From: Cupriavidus basilensis
Lineage (GTDB): Bacteria > Pseudomonadota > Gammaproteobacteria > Burkholderiales > Burkholderiaceae
Length of the DNA stretch: 64,000 bases
NCBI RefSeq assembly: GCF_008801925.2
Contig: NZ_CP062806.1
Span: forward strand, 248,001 to 312,000
Direction of reading: 5' to 3'
The notes below the pieces were generated by a model. It ran no database searches and had not been told where the DNA came from. It worked only from the letters and a program-made list of their open reading frames with translations. Position 1 is the stretch's first letter; every line of letters starts with the position of its first letter. The position numbers were made by a program, and so were the translations under genes. Positions 40,276 to 51,989 of this stretch are shown here, one piece after another.

Positions 40276-40395
40276 GGGGGTGGTTCCCTCGGGGCAGGTC
40301 GTCCTGCGGGAATCATCTCGGCTGCGGGTCGTCCCGCAGCGGCGCCCTTCGGGCGCGGAATGGACAAGCCGGTTCTGCGTACTGCGTACTGCGGG
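40276..40395. other. Intra-operon spacer with strong hairpins
   Basis: Two perfect hairpins lie next to each other: GCTGCGGG-TCGT-CCCGCAGC region (40321-40340) and GGCGCCC-TTC-GGGCGC (40341-40356), then a short repeat TACTGCG, TACTGCG (40388 area). They may stabilise or process the operon mRNA. No coding potential. Confidence 0.45.
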
Positions 40396-44743: not shown

Positions 44744-44801
44744 GGTTCGGCTCCGATCGGCGGTGACAAATGGCAGGGAAGCCACCTCTCAACGAAGTGA
44801 A

Positions 44802-44912
44802 CCTCCCGGGCTTTTGTCCCGCCGTGGAGCCTGGGCGCGAACTAGCGCGCCTGAGGCCGGTTGCTCTCGGACCAGGCATCGTGCGCATGGCACGACCGGA
44901 ACCCTAGCTACC
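44802..44912 (-). promoter_or_regulatory. Guanidine-I (ykkC) riboswitch
   Basis: The minus strand carries the conserved blocks of the ykkC class in order: CTAGGGTTCCG, CTGGTCCGAGAG, a hairpin (CAGGCGCGCTAGTTCGCGCC), and CACGGCGGGACAAAAGCCCG followed by GGAGG. These are the guanidinium-binding core elements. It lies in the 5' leader of the ABC receptor gene. Immediately downstream, GGGAGG (44802-44807) can pair with CTTCCC (44776-44781), so the end of the aptamer could be sequestered in an alternative hairpin; no U-run follows, so translational or mixed control is possible. Confidence 0.92.
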
Positions 44913-44925
44913 CTTCGGTGAGCGA

Positions 44926-45490
44926 CGCTTGGCCGCTTCCCTGCGGGTTACTGAGCAAACGGCATGCCAGGCGCATGGAAAGCGCGCTGGCCGGCAAATG
45001 TGGCGCTGAATGCCTAAAGTCAGGTGCGAATTTTGGATCTGCCTGGCTGAATGCCATCGCTTGGTGCGCGGGTGGTGCCCGCGCGCACCGTCAGGGTGCG
45101 CGTGATGTGGCGCTTCCGGTGCGCGGGCCTGATCCGGTCACGCCGCCAGCTTGCTCAGGCTTTCCACGCCGCTATGTCGAGAATTATGCGCTGGGCCGCC
45201 GTCGTATGAGGCGCTGGGAAATGGATGCGCATCCAGACGAAGGGGAAGACGACTTGGAAGTTCCGGCCAGCAATCTGGTCCGGCGCTGGGGGCCAAATCC
45301 TGGCAGAAATGATGCCGGGGGGCATTCCGCCAGCAGTTCAGCGTCGGCGAGTTGCGGCCGGACAGTGCCGAGGCAGCCACGCGCGCCTGGCTGGCCGAAG
45401 CCTCGAGCCAGGCACTGCCGCGCTCGAGATCACCGCGGCCTCCCGCGCTGGCGTCGTCGGTGTCCATGGGCGTCTCATAATCGTGCAGAC
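44926..45490. other. Non-coding or decayed stretch upstream of the riboswitch
   Basis: Frames such as MRRWEMDAHPDEGEDDLEVP and EFSVGELRPDSAEAATRAWL look protein-like in pieces but are in different frames and lack starts, which suggests a decayed gene. It should also hold the promoter of the guanidine operon, which I cannot place with confidence. Confidence 0.35.
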
Positions 45491-45497
45491 GTTCACG

Positions 45498-45525
45498 GTT
45501 TAACATAATAAACGTTATGTGATTC
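45498..45525. other. dif: dif-like XerC/XerD recombination site
   Basis: GTTTAACATAA (45498-45508), a 6-bp centre TAAACG, and TTATGTGATTC (45515-45525). Read on the minus strand the right arm is TTATGTTAAAC, which matches the XerD arm of E. coli dif (TTATGTTAAAT) at 10 of 11 bases, and the left arm GAATCACATAA matches the XerC arm at 7 of 11, with an equal 6-bp spacer. It is either the chromosome-dimer resolution site of this replicon or the attachment site of a Xer-dependent element. Confidence 0.75.
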
Positions 45526-45658
45526 AAGGGGCACAAAACGTGTGCTGCCGAGGAACACTCCCAGGTGTAGCCAGTCAAGATTGCCTTAGGGCGCCGGGAA
45601 CGGTACAGTTGGACTACCGGCTAGCAATGGCCAGCAACAGTAAGTTGGGAGCGAAAGC

Positions 45659-45949
45659 ATGACATCGAGGGATGACGAGCGCAACGTTTTGGCCCGGTGC
45701 GCGGCCGCGTCGCGCGGTGACATCACGGTAGCTTTCGATCAGCGAGAAGCCAACGTTTTTCGTCTTGCCGCGATGGTGCTGCAGTCGCGTTTGCCAGTGG
45801 AATCCGTTCGCTTGATGCATGCAAGCGAGCAATACTTCCGTCTGTATCCGACCGATAAGGTGTCCAGCGCTGACGTGGTTCGGAAAGGCTGGGTATCGGG
45901 CTTGCCTCGGCTGCGCGATATGCTGACTATGCAGTTGCGGCCTCACTGA
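45659..45949 (+). CDS. Small hypothetical protein paired with a nucleotidyltransferase
   Basis: 96 residues (MTSRDDERNVLARCAAAS...). The start follows GGAGCGAAAGC. The stop is separated from the next start by a single base, so the two are almost certainly translated together. No domain recognised. In this arrangement it might be the partner (toxin or antitoxin) of the nucleotidyltransferase-like protein. Confidence 0.6.
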   Translation: MTSRDDERNVLARCAAASRGDITVAFDQREANVFRLAAMVLQSRLPVESVRLMHASEQYFRLYPTDKVSSADVVRKGWVSGLPRLRDMLTMQLRPH

Positions 45950-45950
45950 A

Positions 45951-46562
45951 ATGGCCGACAACGTCTCCTTCCACACGCGCACGGCACTTGCCGAGGGGCT
46001 TCGCGAGTTGTTCAAGCAGCTTGAACAGCGCCTTTCCCTTCGGCAACCCCTGACGGTCTATCTGGCTGGTGGGATGGCGGTGCACCTCTATACGGCAAGC
46101 CGAGTCACAACGGACGTTGACGCTGAGTTCGCTGGGCGGGTGCTGTTGCCTCAGGACGTGCTTGTGGACGTGGTCTTGGAAGATGGGACGCCTCAGGTCA
46201 TCTACCTGGACACAAACTACAATCCGACGTTTGCGCTAATGCACGAGGACTACCAGGAAGACTCTATACCGGTGGACCTGGGCCTGGATCAGATTCAGGT
46301 GCGCGTGCTTTCCCCCGTGGATCTCGCTGTCAGCAAAATCGCGCGACTCGCTGATAACGATCGCGAAGACATTCGCGCACTCGTTGCAGCTGGACTGACG
46401 TCGGCAGATGAGATAGAGGAACGTGCAACAAGCGCCCTTGGCGGTTACGTAGGCGGAATCGAGATGCTACGCCTCAACCTTCGCGACACACTTGAGATAG
46501 CGCGTGAAGAGGAGCGCATCGCCGCTTTGGTGGCGGGTACGAGGGAACGTCCTACGTTCTGA
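45951..46562 (+). CDS. DUF6036-like nucleotidyltransferase-fold protein
   Basis: 203 residues. LTVYLAGGMAVHLYTASRVTTDVDAEF (written here as its ends, residues about 35-60) carries the GG and the Asp-x-Asp (D55, D57) of the nucleotidyltransferase fold, as in AbiEii/DUF6036 proteins. Such proteins act as toxins or antitoxins in abortive-infection or addiction-type pairs. It is coupled to the upstream small gene. Role inferred only. Confidence 0.72.
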   Translation: MADNVSFHTRTALAEGLRELFKQLEQRLSLRQPLTVYLAGGMAVHLYTASRVTTDVDAEFAGRVLLPQDVLVDVVLEDGTPQVIYLDTNYNPTFALMHEDYQEDSIPVDLGLDQIQVRVLSPVDLAVSKIARLADNDREDIRALVAAGLTSADEIEERATSALGGYVGGIEMLRLNLRDTLEIAREEERIAALVAGTRERPTF

Positions 46563-46735
46563 CCGTTGCAGAGGCAGCGCAACGCCCCCGGCGCCCCACC
46601 TCTCCAGGCCTGCTGCCGCCCTACCACGCCACGGCTGCCCTTCCCTGCCACTGCTCGCCACGTCGCCATCGTCGAATGGTCGAGTCTCCCTGGCCAGCCG
46701 GGTCCCCAATCTTCAGCAAACCTGCCTAGCCCGCG

Positions 46736-47122
46736 TTGGCTCTCAGCGTCCTCGCCTACGGCGACGAGCCGGTGGGTGATCCCGGCGCCGTCGTGCAGGA
46801 TTTGAACTCGACCGAGTTCGAGCGCTTTTTTAGTTCCGCCGGAACGGTCCTGGTGATTCACTACGATACGGTTCAACTGGGAATGGACCATGTGTGCCAC
46901 GCCACCGTCGGCATCAGCGCGGCACCCGAGGCCGGAGCCACCGCACGGCTTCCCGCTTGGCGCTTCAACGCGACCCGCTTGATCAGGGGCCATGGAAGTC
47001 TTGACCTGGCTGGCTACGCGCAGCGAGCCCTCGCTCGTAGGCGCACGCACCGCCAAGCGCGCCGGCCGGGACATCTGACGGGCTTCGACGGACCGACCTT
47101 GACTTCATCCCCGCCCGGGTAG
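46736..47122 (+). CDS. Possible hypothetical protein
   Basis: 128 codons with a stretch of plausible protein (DPGAVVQDLNSTEFERFFSS, VLVIHYDTVQLGMDHVCHATVG) but a proline/arginine-rich tail typical of a frame that has drifted. No clear start signal and no recognised family. An antisense frame overlaps it. Listed with low confidence. Confidence 0.3.
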   Translation: MALSVLAYGDEPVGDPGAVVQDLNSTEFERFFSSAGTVLVIHYDTVQLGMDHVCHATVGISAAPEAGATARLPAWRFNATRLIRGHGSLDLAGYAQRALARRRTHRQARRPGHLTGFDGPTLTSSPPG

Positions 47123-47155
47123 ATTGGATGCACGTTCATCACCCAGGTGCTTCCG

Positions 47156-47704
47156 ATGTGGGCCGACTCCCCCCAACTCAACCTCTTTGACGAGCTCGCT
47201 CGCGGATCCCTCGCACGATCAATGGCTCGCCCGTTGGTGTTGATGGCCTGCTCGGCCACGAAGCTCAACCGCCCTGCCCCCGCCATGGATCTGTATCGCG
47301 GCGTCATGTATGAAACGTTTCGCGCGCACGTGCGAGCCGATGCGCAGCCCCAGGTCATCATCCTCTCCGCGCGACATGGCTTTATCCAGCCTGACGCCGA
47401 GATTGCCCCTTACGATCTCCGTATGACCGCCGATCGCGCGCAGATCATGCTCTCGGGCCTGCCAACGGCGATGGCCGGTGCGGTGTGGCCCTACCAGGTC
47501 GGCCCGGTCTTTCTCGCCGGCGGCATGCACTACCGTCGGGTGATGCGCGCAGCCGTGGAGCGGTGGGCGCATAGGATTGGTGCCGGCAGCGCGCCGACGA
47601 TCATGGAAACCAGCGGCGGCATCGGGATGCAGCGCTCCCAGCTCGGCCAGTACTTGGACGGCCTAACCAGTCAACTACCCCGCTCTGAAGGGCGGAGCTT
47701 GTAA
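47156..47704 (+). CDS. DUF6884-domain protein, 3' end altered by the IscB element
   Basis: The frame from ATG 47156 reads MARPLVLMACSATKLNRPAP, YRGVMYETFRAHV, IILSARHGFIQPD, IAPYDLRM, the DUF6884 (PAS-like, restriction-adjacent) pattern. Its last residues beyond LDGLT are encoded by the inserted element, giving an artificial tail SQLPRSEGRSL. Without the element the protein would end ...YLDGLTR. Function unknown; it formerly overlapped the next host gene by 4 bp. Confidence 0.72.
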   Translation: MWADSPQLNLFDELARGSLARSMARPLVLMACSATKLNRPAPAMDLYRGVMYETFRAHVRADAQPQVIILSARHGFIQPDAEIAPYDLRMTADRAQIMLSGLPTAMAGAVWPYQVGPVFLAGGMHYRRVMRAAVERWAHRIGAGSAPTIMETSGGIGMQRSQLGQYLDGLTSQLPRSEGRSL

Positions 47705-47953
47705 AGGCAACTGAAAAGGCTCGGGTTGACCAGGCAAAGCGGTAACCAACCCGCTACGTTGTGAATAGGTGCAAGACCAACGTTGGGATGCTTCCTCAGT
47801 CCCAACCTCTTGAAGCCCCGGTTGCAGACAAGCGACAGGGTAAGCACGAAACGGATCGGGGCGGATCGCCGGTTCGCAACATTGCCGAGGGGAGACCTCC
47901 CGAAAGGGAGGCGTCACTAGGCCCGTAAGGGCAACTTTTTAGGAGAGATTGCA
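47655..47953 (+). ncRNA. omega RNA (HEARO RNA) with 16-nt guide
   Basis: About 280 non-coding bases ahead of iscB with dense structure. Visible hairpins: CCGCTC-TGAA-GGGCGG (47680-47695), GTTGGGA...TCCCAAC (47782-47806), CCTCCC-GAAA-GGGAGG (47896-47911), GCCC-GTAA-GGGC (47921-47932). The TTGAAGCCCCGGTTGCAG segment (from 47809) is typical of HEARO RNAs. The guide should be the host flank directly 5' of the element: TGGACGGCCTAACCAG at 47655-47670. The exact 5' and 3' ends are estimates. Confidence 0.85.
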
Positions 47954-49356
47954 GTGGCAGTCTTTGTGTTGGATAAGAGCGGCAAGCCGCTCATGCCGTG
48001 CAGCGAGAAGCGCGCCAGATTGTTGCTCGTGCGCCGCCGCGCGCGCGTGCACCGCGTAATGCCGTTCACGATCCGCCTAGTGGATCGGGGGCAGGCGAAC
48101 AGCGTCTTGCAACCGGTTCGCCTTAAACTCGATCCGGGCAGCAAGGGAACCGGCGTGGCCATCACGCGCGAGGTCAAGGCCGGCGGTGACGAGACGGCTC
48201 GGGATGTTGCCGTCCTGTCTCTCGCGGAACTGATCCACCGCGGCGCGCAGATCAGCCTGAGCCTGACCGCACGGCGGGCCATGCGACGTGGCAGGCGTGG
48301 CCGCAAGACTCGGTATCGTGCCGCTCGTTTCAATAACCGGCGCAAGCCCGTAGGCTGGTTGGCGCCAAGCCTACAACACCGTGTGCAGACCACGATGGCC
48401 TGGGTGCGCCGTTTCCGGGCGCTCGCGCCGATTACAGCCGTCAGCACCGAACTCGTCCGCTTCGACATGCAGGCGCTGCAAAACCCGGAGATCTCTGGCG
48501 TCGAGTATCAACAAGGCGAACTGGCCGGCTACGAGATCCGGGAGTACCTGCTAGAGAAATGGGGCCGGCAGTGCGCGTACTGCGATGCCCGCGATACGCC
48601 GCTGGAAATGGAGCATATCGATGCCCGGGCAAACGGTGGCTCCAACAGGGTCTCCAACCTGACGCTGGCGTGCGTGCCTTGCAATCGGAAGAAGGACGCG
48701 CGTCCGCTCTCTGATTTCCTGCGCAAGGACCCGGAGCGTCTCAGACGCATTCTGGCCAAGGCAAAGACACCGCTTCGCGACGCAGCTGCGGTCAATTCGA
48801 CCCGGTGGGCTTTGTACAACGCGCTGAAGACCACGGGGCTTTCAGTGGAGACCGGGTCGGGTGCACGAACGAAGTTCAATCGCCGACGATTCGATCTGCC
48901 AAAGACGCACGCGCTGGACGCCGCGTGCGTTGGGGTGATCGACTCAGTTTCGGGATGGCAAAAGCCCACGTTGGCTATGAAGTGCTCGGGCCGCGGCGCT
49001 TACCAGCGCACGCGACTCACCGCATCCGGCTTTCCTCGCGGCTACCTCATGCGCAGCAAGCGCGCATTCGGCTTTCAGACCGGTGACATGGTGCGGGCCG
49101 TTGTGCCGTCTGGGAAGAAGGCTGGCAGGCATATTGGGCGGGTGGCGATTCGCGCCACCGGCTCCTTCAACATTCAGACCGCCGAAGGGGTCGTCCAGGG
49201 TGTCTCTCACCGCTATTGCAAGATCATGCAACGCGGCGACGGATATGGTTATTCGCTCGTAGCGCAATCCACGAAGGAGAGCGGGCACAGGGGCGACGCT
49301 TCGCGTCGCGCGCTATCCCTCACCGGCCTGAAGGCCGATGTTTCCCGCGCGAACTG
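47671..49356 (+). mobile_element. IscB/HEARO element of IS200/IS605 type, without TnpA
   Basis: The left end is TCAACTACCCC plus a hairpin with loop TGAA; the right end is CTATCCCTCACCGGCCTGAAG with the hairpin CGGCC-TGAA-GGCCG (49324-49337) followed by ATGTTTCCCGCGCGAACTG. Both ends carry subterminal palindromes in the same orientation, as in IS605-like elements, not inverted terminal repeats. The joined flanks restore a stop codon and ATGA. Length about 1686 bp; it contains only the omega RNA and iscB, so it would need a transposase in trans. Confidence 0.8.
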
Positions 49357-49357
49357 A
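47954..49357 (+). CDS. iscB: IscB RNA-guided endonuclease (RuvC plus HNH)
   Basis: 467 residues, full length and intact. The N-terminal PLMP domain carries the motif itself (KPLMPCS, residues 11-17). RuvC-I: D60 in LKLDPGSKGTGVAI. Arg-rich bridge helix about 105-130. RuvC-II: E166 in STELVRFDMQ. HNH with zinc cysteines: C207, C210, E220/H221 (MEHIDARANGGS), N235, C240, C243. RuvC-III: H319, D322 in KTHALDAACVG. The C-terminal basic domain is present. IscB uses an omega RNA to cut DNA and is the ancestor of Cas9. A GGAGAG ribosome binding site lies 5' of the GTG/ATG. Its final stop codon uses the first base of the flanking ATGA. Confidence 0.95.
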   Translation: MAVFVLDKSGKPLMPCSEKRARLLLVRRRARVHRVMPFTIRLVDRGQANSVLQPVRLKLDPGSKGTGVAITREVKAGGDETARDVAVLSLAELIHRGAQISLSLTARRAMRRGRRGRKTRYRAARFNNRRKPVGWLAPSLQHRVQTTMAWVRRFRALAPITAVSTELVRFDMQALQNPEISGVEYQQGELAGYEIREYLLEKWGRQCAYCDARDTPLEMEHIDARANGGSNRVSNLTLACVPCNRKKDARPLSDFLRKDPERLRRILAKAKTPLRDAAAVNSTRWALYNALKTTGLSVETGSGARTKFNRRRFDLPKTHALDAACVGVIDSVSGWQKPTLAMKCSGRGAYQRTRLTASGFPRGYLMRSKRAFGFQTGDMVRAVVPSGKKAGRHIGRVAIRATGSFNIQTAEGVVQGVSHRYCKIMQRGDGYGYSLVAQSTKESGHRGDASRRALSLTGLKADVSRAN

Positions 49358-49665
49358 TGACTCTCACCATCACCCTGCAGTTGGAAGCCAAGGCCCTCGC
49401 TGCCAACCTCGATGGCACGCCCGACGCGCTGCTTGCCCTCACCCATGCCGGCTACCGCTGCTGGACCAAAGCCAGACGCCTGCATTTCCCACCGCCGCGG
49501 CGCGAAGCGTTGCTGTTGGAAATCATGCGTTTCTGTGCAGACACAAACCTGCTGGAGTGCCCCCCCGACCCTGAGGACGGAGATCGCCTGCAGGCGATAG
49601 AAGGAATGCTTGACGGGCGCTATCCGCGATACGCGCGACTCAAGCGGAACCCGCATCGCGCATGA
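49357..49665 (+). CDS. Hypothetical protein downstream of the IscB element
   Basis: 102 residues (MTLTITLQLEAKALAANLDG...). The ATG begins exactly at the right flank of the element (ATGA). Before insertion, this start would have overlapped the stop of the DUF6884-like gene, so the two were a coupled pair. No domain recognised; the sequence is mildly basic and ends near RNPHRA. Confidence 0.65.
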   Translation: MTLTITLQLEAKALAANLDGTPDALLALTHAGYRCWTKARRLHFPPPRREALLLEIMRFCADTNLLECPPDPEDGDRLQAIEGMLDGRYPRYARLKRNPHRA

Positions 49666-49810
49666 GCACGCCGGCAAACTTGCCTTCAGATCCACGAAGT
49701 AGCTGACCTCTCGCCGCCCGGGCGCGTGAACCCCTCTTCTTGTGGGCAATGTCCGCCTCGTAGAGGCGGCAGGGGTGTAGCGAACGCAAAATTCAGTATA
49801 TAAATACGTC

Positions 49811-50725
49811 ATGAAATCCGCCGACACCTGGCTCAGCAACCCCACCCTCGCCTACGCAGACTGGCAACGTCGCGAAGCCGCGGGCGCCAACAGACGCCCT
49901 TTTGCCGCCCGCTCGATCGTCCAGCATCAGGCCATGTTCGAACACTTCAGGCGTCATCTGCTGGCCGCCCGAACTACCCTGGCCACATTCGGCCCGGACC
50001 ATATCGATGCCTTCTGGCAATCGCCGGACGCGCTCGGCTATAGCACCGCCACGCGCATGCGTTATCTGAAGCTGCTGGACCGGTTTTGCCGGCATCTGGT
50101 TGCCGTGGGCGTGCGCGAGAGCAACCCAGCCAATCAGCTGGTGCGGAATGGCCACTGGCCCAAGGACGAGCCGGACCCTATCTATCTGCCCGAAGACGCC
50201 GACGCCCGGCTGCAGGCGTGGGTTCAGCCGCACGACGGCGACGATCTGGCAGCCTTGCGAAGCGGTGCCATGGTGGCATTCTTCCTAGCCACCGGCATCA
50301 CCGCAGCAGAAGCGCGCACGGCCAGGCGGGAGGATCTGCAGCCCGGCACTTCCACACCCTATCTGCGCGTGCCAGCTCACGGCGCACGCGACACCCGCAC
50401 GGTCCCCATCGGGTCCTTCGCCGTCCCGATCCTTGCGGAATGGCACGTTCGCCGTCAGACCCTGCCGGTCGACGGCGAGCTCGTTTTCTCACTGAGGGCC
50501 AGCGGCGAGCCGATCACTGATATGAGCTTTGGCAAGATTGTGCGAGCGGCGCTCATGGCCATCGATTTCGAAGACGAAGACCTGAGCCCGCGGGTGCTGC
50601 GCAACACGTACTGCCGCCGTCAGCTACTTGCTGGCCAAGGCCAGGATGAAGTCAGCAAGCTGCTTGGGCTGGCCAGCACGCGAACCTGCGACCGAATCAG
50701 GGCCACCATCGCCCAGCAGTTGTAA
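49811..50725 (+). CDS. Tyrosine-recombinase-fold protein, catalytically degenerate
   Basis: 304 residues. The N-terminal SAM-like core-binding domain (about 30-110) and C-terminal catalytic fold are recognisable, including LPEDADARL and SFGKIVRAAL. Key residues are lost: the first Arg motif reads TGITAAEA instead of TGLRxSE, the HxLRH motif reads RVLRNT (only the Arg at about 264 remains), and the Tyr nucleophile position reads STRTCDRI with no Tyr. It is probably inactive as a recombinase. Located about 4 kb from a dif-like site, possibly part of a decayed integrative element. Confidence 0.75.
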   Translation: MKSADTWLSNPTLAYADWQRREAAGANRRPFAARSIVQHQAMFEHFRRHLLAARTTLATFGPDHIDAFWQSPDALGYSTATRMRYLKLLDRFCRHLVAVGVRESNPANQLVRNGHWPKDEPDPIYLPEDADARLQAWVQPHDGDDLAALRSGAMVAFFLATGITAAEARTARREDLQPGTSTPYLRVPAHGARDTRTVPIGSFAVPILAEWHVRRQTLPVDGELVFSLRASGEPITDMSFGKIVRAALMAIDFEDEDLSPRVLRNTYCRRQLLAGQGQDEVSKLLGLASTRTCDRIRATIAQQL

Positions 50726-50826
50726 TCGTTGGTTTCACGCAGTCGCACACACAGCATGGAGTTTGCTATTCTCTCAAACGCCTCCACGGCGACATATCAA
50801 CGAGTAACTAGATCACAGAAGAATCC

Positions 50827-51264
50827 ATGGCAACCAAAGCGAAAGCTGTAGTAAAGACCCCGGCCAAGCCTGCAGCCAAGAAGGCAGCAGCACCTGCCAC
50901 GAAGGCGGCCGCACCGGCAAAGAAAGCCGCAGCGGCTGCGCCAGTAGCGAAGCCGCTGAAGGAAACCTTCACCAAGGCGAGCTTGCTGGCCCACCTGGTC
51001 GCCCAGACCGAGCTGGACGCCAAGACCGTCAAGACCGTGCTGGCACACCTGGAAAACACGGTCCTGAGCGCGGTGCACAAGAAGGGTGCGGGCGAGTTCA
51101 CGCTCCCTGGCCTGCTCAAGGTCACTGCACTGCAAGTGGCGGCGACCAAGAAGCGTTTCGGCAAGAACCCGTTCACCGGTGAGGACCAGTGGTTCGCTGC
51201 AAAGCCCGCGACCGTCAAAGTCAAGGTCCGCCCGCTGAAGAAACTCAAGGATGCCGCGCTGTAA
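50827..51264 (+). CDS. HU-family DNA-binding protein with Ala/Lys-rich tail
   Basis: 145 residues. The first 47 are a repetitive AK/P-rich tail resembling eukaryotic H1 tails; residues 48-145 form the HU/IHF fold (TFTKASLLAHLVAQTEL, then RFGKNPFTGED, the DNA-binding arm region). Such extended HU proteins are common in Cupriavidus and Burkholderia and compact the chromosome. It ends in KKLKDAAL and is followed by a strong terminator. A near-copy of this 3' end occurs at 54813-54893. Confidence 0.88.
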   Translation: MATKAKAVVKTPAKPAAKKAAAPATKAAAPAKKAAAAAPVAKPLKETFTKASLLAHLVAQTELDAKTVKTVLAHLENTVLSAVHKKGAGEFTLPGLLKVTALQVAATKKRFGKNPFTGEDQWFAAKPATVKVKVRPLKKLKDAAL

Positions 51265-51290
51265 CGCAGCAGCCGTACCTGCCGGGAAGC

Positions 51291-51320
51291 AAGGGAGCCC
51301 CGCGTGGCTCCCTTATTTTA
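51291..51320 (+). terminator. Rho-independent terminator of the HU-like gene
   Basis: GGGAGCC (51293-51299) pairs with GGCTCCC (51306-51312), then a T-rich TTATTTTA tail. Directly behind it (51323) starts a group II intron remnant, a known insertion habit of bacterial group IIC introns. Confidence 0.85.
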
Positions 51321-51322
51321 TG

Positions 51323-51510
51323 GTGCGTCCGGCAGGGCGCGCTCGCTAGAGGGTGGAAGTCCCTTACACACCCGGCAAGGGGAGGTGTTAGCCAGACACA
51401 GGGGTTTCCCGGGTGACGGGGAGTCTGAGTCAATGCACTGGCCTGACGAACAGGAAGCGGATACGAGGCGACGTATCGGGGTAAGGTAACCAAAATTGCC
51501 AAAGCCCAAT
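51323..51510 (+). mobile_element. Group II intron, 5' (domain I) remnant
   Basis: It begins with GTGCG and continues with the conserved runs CTAGAGGGTGGAAGTCCC, TTACACACCCGGCAAGGGGA, GGTGTTAGCCAGACAC, CCTGACGAACAGGAAGCGGA, GGCGACGTATCGGGGTAAGG and GTAACCAAAATTGCCAAAGC, the start of a bacterial group II intron. It stops before any maturase gene and gives way to a porin fragment. Group II introns of the C type typically insert just after a terminator hairpin, as here. Class and exact ends are inference. Confidence 0.75.
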
Positions 51511-51539
51511 TCCGCCTGCAAGATTACTGCGTGAGACGG

Positions 51540-51989
51540 TCAGAAGACGTGCTTGATGCCCAGCATGCCGCCGACCTGAGAGGCCCCAGCGGGCGGCGTG
51601 GACTGTCCGTCGACGGACGCCGCAAGTTGGCCCTTATTGTCGAGATATCCGACCGTGCCATAGACCATGGTTCGCTTGGACAGGGCATAGCTACCACGCA
51701 TAGAGCCCAACCATGCCTTGTTGCTGCTGTCGTGATAGCGCAGCAGATAGACCTGACCTGCAAGCGTAAGCGCGGGGGTGATATCGTAAGCCGCGCCCAC
51801 ATACCAGAGATCGCTGCGGGGCGTGCTGCTGCCGTCGTTCTGACGGAAGATGACGCCGGCGCCAACTTTGGTTCTGTCAAGGATGGCATAGCCTGTGACG
51901 GTCGATCGCTTGTCCGTCATGCTGCTCTTGGTCAGGCCCCCGAAGGCGCCCGGCCCACCACGAAATTCGTCATATGCCGCGGCCACGCC
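51540..51989 (-). pseudogene. Porin, C-terminal fragment
   Basis: About 150 residues of the C-terminal half of a Burkholderiales porin (GVAAAYDEFRGGPGAFGG, TVTGYAILDRTKVGAGVIF, LWYVGAAYDITPALTLAG, ending GGMLGIKHVF). The signal peptide and N-terminal half are missing; sequence beyond about 51990 is unrelated. It directly abuts the group II intron remnant, so one deletion may have trimmed both. Confidence 0.8.

Follow-up and report, generated by a model that had tools for sequence, protein, structure and literature searches.

In OMEGA systems, IscB together with its RNA cuts the empty allele, and both the flank-derived guides of these systems and the presence of ATGA at HEARO sites are already known. 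ATGA or GTGA was reportedly described at HEARO insertion sites by Weinberg in 2009, and an ATGA motif is said to have been published for AwaIscB. In TnpB elements, the guide is located on the right. One report describes cleavage of targets with TTGA and ATGA by DtIsrB (PMC9581776), and another indicates that TnpA accompanies no more than a few HEARO nucleases (PMC9755519). The excerpted text of a third (PMC13180657) does not treat insertion sites. At the level of titles and the opening of abstracts, our literature search returned neither the docking of IscB elements at start codons nor an iscB stop codon borrowed from the target. Key earlier work lies outside that search, and we therefore claim no priority for either pattern.

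Here we describe an IscB locus in a 64,000-nucleotide stretch of a Cupriavidus basilensis genome, referred to below as the window. Our best explanation as a whole, to which we assign a probability of roughly 0.85, is that the window holds a complete, transposase-less IscB/omega-RNA element of the IS200/IS605-like kind. The window copy is an intact addition to a known kind of IscB, and the start-codon pattern seen at the level of the family is the part worth following.

Results

An intact and constrained iscB gene

A sequence-only reading of the window had claimed a full-length IscB of 467 residues with its catalytic residues and PLMP motif, and profile searches bear this out. The protein scores 450.8 bits against the NCBIfam model guided_IscB (NF040563; cut-off 175), and Pfam recognises RRXRR (234 bits) and HNH in the 467-residue ORF. 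Cas9d was the only Cas9 profile listed, at 25.2 bits and far below its cut-off of 375, and on these scores the protein is placed in IscB and not in Cas9. IsrB was rejected as an identity, since the HNH domain is present. Residues D60, E166, H221, N235, H319 and D322, which we take to be catalytic, and PLMP (residues 12-15) are all found at the positions that their numbers indicate, and the named residues fall in stretches that align with the solved IscB chains TbaIscB (9k30) and OgeuIscB (7xht).

The two nearest relatives (L003 and L004) are identical to the window protein at 420 and 395 of the 467 residues, and dN/dS against them is 0.124 and 0.146, which indicates purifying selection and speaks against an ORF in decay. 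We conclude that iscB is a real gene, both intact and constrained. That the nuclease may be active, as had also been suggested, is supported by this selection, the intact residues, the relatives with several copies and the presence of the guide target with ATGA in a relative.

Anatomy and boundaries of the element

The HEARO-like RNA of the sequence-only reading was recovered by a covariance search, in which the whole of the RF02033 model matched with 114.5 bits (gathering threshold 83, E 6.9e-23); apart from a 12-base insert near model position 41, the omega RNA is ordinary. The structured RNA before iscB had been put at approximately 280 bases, a length that we revise to a 231-base RNA match plus a guide of 16 bases, which is presumably the guide length of this element. 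The proposed extent of 47655..49357 also changes, because the alignment of the ends of 15 copies places the element proper at 47670-49356 (1,687 bp) and assigns the 16 bases to its left to the flank, as the guide (Table 1). The earlier reading had included neither the element ends nor the guide with its target motif, and it had not noted that the insertion lies at a start codon or that the neighbouring gene is truncated. There is no transposase inside the element. The right end, which contains a hairpin (GGCCTGAAGGCC at 49325-49336), is translated as the C-terminal tail of IscB, and the TGA stop of iscB consists of TG from the element and the A of the target ATGA, overlapping the downstream start as TGATGA.

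Table 1. Features of the window element and its host locus (window coordinates)
Feature	Position	Strand	Basis or remark
Guide	47654..47669	+	Left-flank sequence of 16 bases that adjoins the HEARO start and is not part of the element
HEARO/omega RNA scaffold	47670..47900	+	Rfam RF02033; base 47670 (GTCAAC...) is the left end of the element
Likely iscB ribosome-binding site, AGGAGAG	47941..47947	+	6 bases before the GTG; read from the sequence
iscB, 467 aa	47954..49357	+	GTG start at 47954; TGA stop at 49355-49357
Element right end	49300..49356	+	Alignment of 15 right ends and display of 80 loci; inner limit approximate
ATGA target/adjacent motif, also the start codon of the next gene	49357..49360	+	Same ATGA start in uninterrupted L039 and L040
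Truncated DUF6884 gene	47147..47704	+	Pfam DUF6884; protein alignment and DNA comparison with relatives
Downstream host gene, 102 aa, function not assigned	49357..49665	+	Its start codon and the iscB stop overlap
Tyrosine recombinase belonging to this plasmid-type locus	49811..50725	+	Pfam Phage_integrase

Hybrid flanks at a plasmid-type locus

Cupriavidus plasmids that lack IscB have the gene order DUF6884, small gene, tyrosine recombinase, HU. The small gene, annotated in two of three plasmid records, starts at a 4-base overlap with DUF6884, and in L032 and L033 the gene that overlaps the end of DUF6884 by 4 bases is a homologue of the 102-aa gene of the window. In the window, the DUF6884 gene has approximately 174 native codons followed by about 11 residues from the omega RNA, and some 80-85 C-terminal codons of the relatives are absent; the open frames in the nearest relatives (G040, G058:C1 and G058:C7) are 275, 275 and 244 codons long. 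The window lacks approximately 256 bp that in L039 separate an internal ATGA of DUF6884 from the ATGA at which the small gene starts. The window flanks therefore derive from two ATGA sites, with the left flank lying inside DUF6884 and not in the sequence that natively precedes the downstream gene, and a simple insertion is ruled out for this copy. The 9-base repeat AACCAATGA, present once in L067 and once in L039/L040, could have caused a deletion before the insertion. No DUF6884 deletion intermediate without the element was found.

A second IscB copy, 66% identical to that of the window, is inserted in genome G003 where a tyrosine recombinase homologous to the window's has its start codon, near a DUF6884 fragment (L022). 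The two recombinases are 60% identical over residues 1-300. Judged from these comparisons, L022 and the window copy landed separately, each at a different start codon of the same type of locus.

The hybrid flanks, with approximately 256 bp missing, raise the question of whether the element is a remnant, its protein intact by chance and the element itself inactive after the flank deletion or for want of a transposase. The result for Y1 transposases, one of which might mobilise the element from elsewhere in the genome, could be taken the same way: genes for them are present in 59 of the 60 genus genomes, and no matching element ends were found around the 13 Y1 loci examined (L083-L095), which are a minority of the matches listed. 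Both ends, the omega RNA and the ORF are nevertheless complete and the coding constraint is strong, and we consider a remnant improbable.

Copies in the genus and the ends of the family

IscB matches at E <= 0.001 were found in 18 of the 60 genus genomes, ten of which had partial matches only, and full-length or nearly full-length copies occur in eight of the 60, the window genome included. Two copies are present in genome G019 and four in G003; G032 carries three, in one of which the frame is broken. A copy in C. basilensis that is 84% identical to that of the window sits at another gene, tssK. The window genome itself (8.94 Mb, 8 contigs searched) contains one HEARO and one IscB, and this single copy, its strong purifying selection and its placement in the plasmid-type locus DUF6884-orf-recombinase-HU would suit a domesticated, immobile IscB that is kept by a plasmid for defence or for plasmid competition. 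A domesticated defence gene is not favoured, because IscB is absent from the locus in the five relatives compared (L032, L033, L034, L039 and L040) and the sister copies occupy several sites. The genus copies lie at unrelated sites, the 84%-identical copy at tssK among them, with two to four copies in three of the genomes, and a dN/dS of this size would equally be expected if mobile copies were under selection. We regard domestication as highly improbable.

Among the 15 copies aligned, the window copy included, 13 have GTCAAC or a close variant at the left end, where the RNA begins, and the comparison is out of register in L003, in which the first part of the RNA is missing, and in L036, in which the RNA carries an insert. 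L003, found in genome G058, encodes an intact IscB that is 90% identical to that of the window, and its aligned DNA starts only at window position 47842, so that the 5' part of its omega RNA and its guide look lost. In L036, on a plasmid of C. necator C39, the omega RNA is split by an insert of approximately 2.5 kb at the position of window 47794. At the right end, ATGA comes next in 14 of the 15 copies, and L007 has no such right end.

For a wider view, the best 80 of 186 confirmed genome-scan stretches were kept as loci, and a right-end anchor was defined independently of the target. The anchor is present in 66 of the 80 loci, the other 14 having no recognisable right end, and ATGA occurs within 16 bases after it in 62 of the 66, compared with 573 of 12,660 background 16-mers (4.5%). 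The four anchors without ATGA belong to L125, L142 (ATGG), L160 and L179 (GTGA). In the aligned ends, subterminal hairpins and oriented insertion beside a fixed motif are found as in IS200/IS605 elements, the window copy having in addition its flank deletion.

The guide and its natural target

The 19-base word made up of 47655-47669 and ATGA occurs exactly once in the 60 genus genomes, in contig 7 of G058 (L067). This genome belongs to another species, and the site lies in a homologous DUF6884 gene, with base 47654 mismatched. The DUF6884 gene of L067 diverges downstream of the site into unrelated-looking sequence. When three mismatches were allowed, guide plus ATGA gave scattered matches in 41 of the 60 genomes and a reversed control pattern matched too; only the exact match is therefore informative. 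Self-targeting was rejected, since the window's own genome has no guide-plus-ATGA site under two mismatches and the two-mismatch match is the element's own flank.

Two sister copies, one at pyrC (G059) and one at a nodT-like lipoprotein gene (G032), allowed empty sites to be compared by joining their flanks. Many genus genomes match across the joint and some match in two pieces instead; at both empty sites the junction is gap-free, with no target duplication. At pyrC, the 17 bases before ATGA are those of the left flank in all six relatives displayed, with small length differences farther upstream, and the guide of the pyrC copy would therefore match other species. At the nodT-like gene, all six relatives displayed are gap-free with ATGA next, but at least two guide mismatches are present, so the guide of that copy would be weakened. 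A guide equal to the left flank, with its target and motif in the uninterrupted allele, is thus found exactly in G058 and in six of six relatives at pyrC.

Insertion at start codons

We assembled 74 distinct junctions from the 63 of 80 loci that passed an ATGA-or-GTGA pattern and 11 further copies; the other four of the 15 aligned copies are represented by genome-scan loci, among them L114, which has no right end. The motif count in these 74 junctions is not independent, because the selection pattern required ATGA or GTGA. The junction motif opens at least 100 codons in 54 of the 74, compared with 553 of 2,283 ATGAs taken as controls from these flanks (24%; p 7e-18), and at least 60 codons in 58, compared with 862 of the 2,283; fewer than 60 codons are opened in the other 16. 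Both ends are known for 52 junctions, 40 of which open at least 60 codons. Upstream closure of the joined frame within 100 codons is seen in 35 of the 40 and in 374 of 632 controls, and such closure is a weak sign of a true start, because at the pyrC start (L008) the upstream frame remains open over 311 codons.

The NCBIfam scan took in every downstream protein of at least 60 aa at the genome-scan loci, 48 in all, with the 11 added copies left out. A family model was matched above its cut-off by 22 of them, and in each of the 22 the best match was entered at profile position 15 or earlier; 12 proteins had matches below the cut-off only, including L165, whose match to its best model begins as late as position 141, and 14 had no match at 1e-8 or better. 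The family-verified proteins include ArgS, NadE, octaprenyl diphosphate synthase, RuvA, FabH, GreB, HisC, a 16S rRNA methyltransferase, TssK, GalE, PyrB, UbiA and YqgE. In six of the 22, between 20 and 52 residues precede the profile match, and the true start may therefore be downstream of the junction.

As a null, one annotated 50-kb stretch of a Cupriavidus plasmid contains 293 ATGAs, 13 of them at starts, 78 intergenic and 202 in genes, according to a PLSDB gene table that is itself incomplete. Family-verified starts, at least 22 of 74 junctions and a lower bound because 48 of the 74 downstream frames were scanned, exceed the 13 of 293 (p 6e-9). An ordinary IscB element, with no special docking and no coupling, could nonetheless show a bias of this type through survival only, since a gene hit at any other place would be broken, leaving copies at ATGA starts or in intergenic DNA. 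The ATGA target motif alone makes starts available, selection against insertions at the 202 ATGAs inside genes is plausible, and downstream genes might be read from internal or leaderless starts. Set against this are the comparison with non-coding ATGAs, in which 13 of 91 are starts (p 0.013, a modest difference), and the long frames opened at 54 of the 74 junctions. We judge this reading to be only just short of an even chance. Survival alone accounts for much of the start-codon bias, though perhaps not for all of it.

A stop codon completed by the target

In 23 of the 74 junctions, the iscB stop is formed by TG of the element and A of the target, and in another 15 it is the target's TGA, so that target bases complete the stop in 38. 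The frame is the same in both groups, with the target read as xxA-TGA, and every target therefore contains a stop overlapping the start of the host gene. Because the copies share ancestry, the 38 borrowed stops are not independent events. In 35 junctions iscB ends 20-118 bases before the junction, and in one (L164) it passes the junction by 53 bases in another frame; none of the 74 shows an in-frame fusion of iscB with the host gene. Coupling of translation through the overlap cannot apply to all copies, given these early stops and the single overrun. Of the 35 early-stop loci (L120, L150 and L162 are among the 35), 24 have their iscB stop 67-75 bases short of the junction. By eye, a GGAGGA-like motif turns up repeatedly near the end of iscB in early-stop loci.

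A ribosome-binding site supplied by the element to the host gene was rejected, as no Shine-Dalgarno-like core was found at -16 to -4 in any of the 74 junctions. The left flank carries such a core in 11 of the 36 junctions that open at least 100 codons and have both ends known, compared with 210 of 1,800 random left-flank positions (p 0.002). This suggests that insertion often splits the Shine-Dalgarno core from its start codon, although 25 of the 36 have no core. The missing core in the element and the displaced cores in the left flank would fit translational coupling without proving it.

Other features of the window

A Guanidine-I riboswitch on the minus strand (44801-44918) precedes minus-strand ORFs that look by eye like an ABC transporter set of substrate-binding protein, permease and ATPase, and a Guanidine-II riboswitch lies at 40294-40340 on the same strand. 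A match to Group II intron D1-D4-3 on the plus strand (51407-51558, 55.4 bits, gathering threshold 32) is possibly an intron fragment; by eye, no reverse transcriptase for it was noticed among the ORFs up to 55000. At low identity, 164 Escherichia plasmid records match somewhere within 45000-51600.

Discussion

An intriguing aspect of the locus is how an element whose guide lies outside its own ends could operate. Its anatomy and boundaries, the ATGA, the start bias, the borrowed stop, the empty junctions and the purifying selection are read from the DNA itself, and one mechanism that may connect them is as follows. Insertion takes place in a single orientation and immediately 5' of ATGA. In most copies examined this ATGA opens a host gene, whose reading frame therefore stays whole. 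The left flank supplies the 16-base guide joined to the omega RNA, and an upstream host promoter may transcribe the guide, the RNA, iscB and the host gene together. IscB with this RNA would then cut the uninterrupted allele, recognised by the guide and ATGA, in relatives or sister replicons, and repair from the occupied copy could keep or spread the element. In the subfamily in which target bases close the iscB frame (TG|A or A|TGA), the resulting overlap of stop and start may allow ribosomes to continue from iscB into the host gene.

It is possible, then, that members of this clade are parasites of start codons: ATGA would be used for insertion and cleavage alike, the element would settle between the 5' region of a host gene and its start codon, a host promoter would make the guide RNA, iscB would do without its own stop and borrow one from the target, the gene would still be translated and the nuclease would survey the starts of relatives. 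We hold this reading tentatively, at somewhat under even odds. If it is true, the element is unable to transcribe its guide RNA itself, the overlap keeps genes such as argS, nadE and the octaprenyl diphosphate synthase gene translated, and the starts that the nuclease surveys in relatives are the intact translation starts of the very gene that the element occupies. Docking at start codons, combined with a borrowed stop, would explain how a guide that lies outside the element comes to be transcribed, and docking would explain how the element can occupy important genes without death of the host. The window copy itself adds a compact nuclease that is intact and under selection, and for which the native guide and a natural target are both available.

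Comparison with known systems places the window element most readily among the IscBs. It shares HNH and RuvC ancestry with Cas9 and Cas9d, whereas its protein has 467 residues and scores far below the Cas9d cut-off. IsrB, represented by DtIsrB, is a related omega RNA system; according to PMC9581776, a linker replaces HNH in IsrB and the enzyme only nicks, whereas the window protein has HNH. The hairpins at both ends and the oriented insertion beside a fixed short motif are as in IS200/IS605 and TnpB elements, as is the absence of target duplication at the two empty sites checked. Unlike those elements the window element has no TnpA, and unlike TnpB elements it has its guide on the left and not on the right. 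As in other HEARO RNAs (RF02033), the full-length match lies directly upstream of an ORF for an HNH protein. With the IscBs of OMEGA systems (NF040563; OgeuIscB, 7xht and 7utn; TbaIscB, 9k30) it has in common the PLMP/RRXRR start, the RuvC parts, HNH, the HEARO omega RNA, the left-flank guide and a short motif on the right side. It differs from them in that the C-terminal tail of its IscB is simply a translation of the element's right end, terminated by bases of the target, and in that its natural target could be identified from an uninterrupted homologue.
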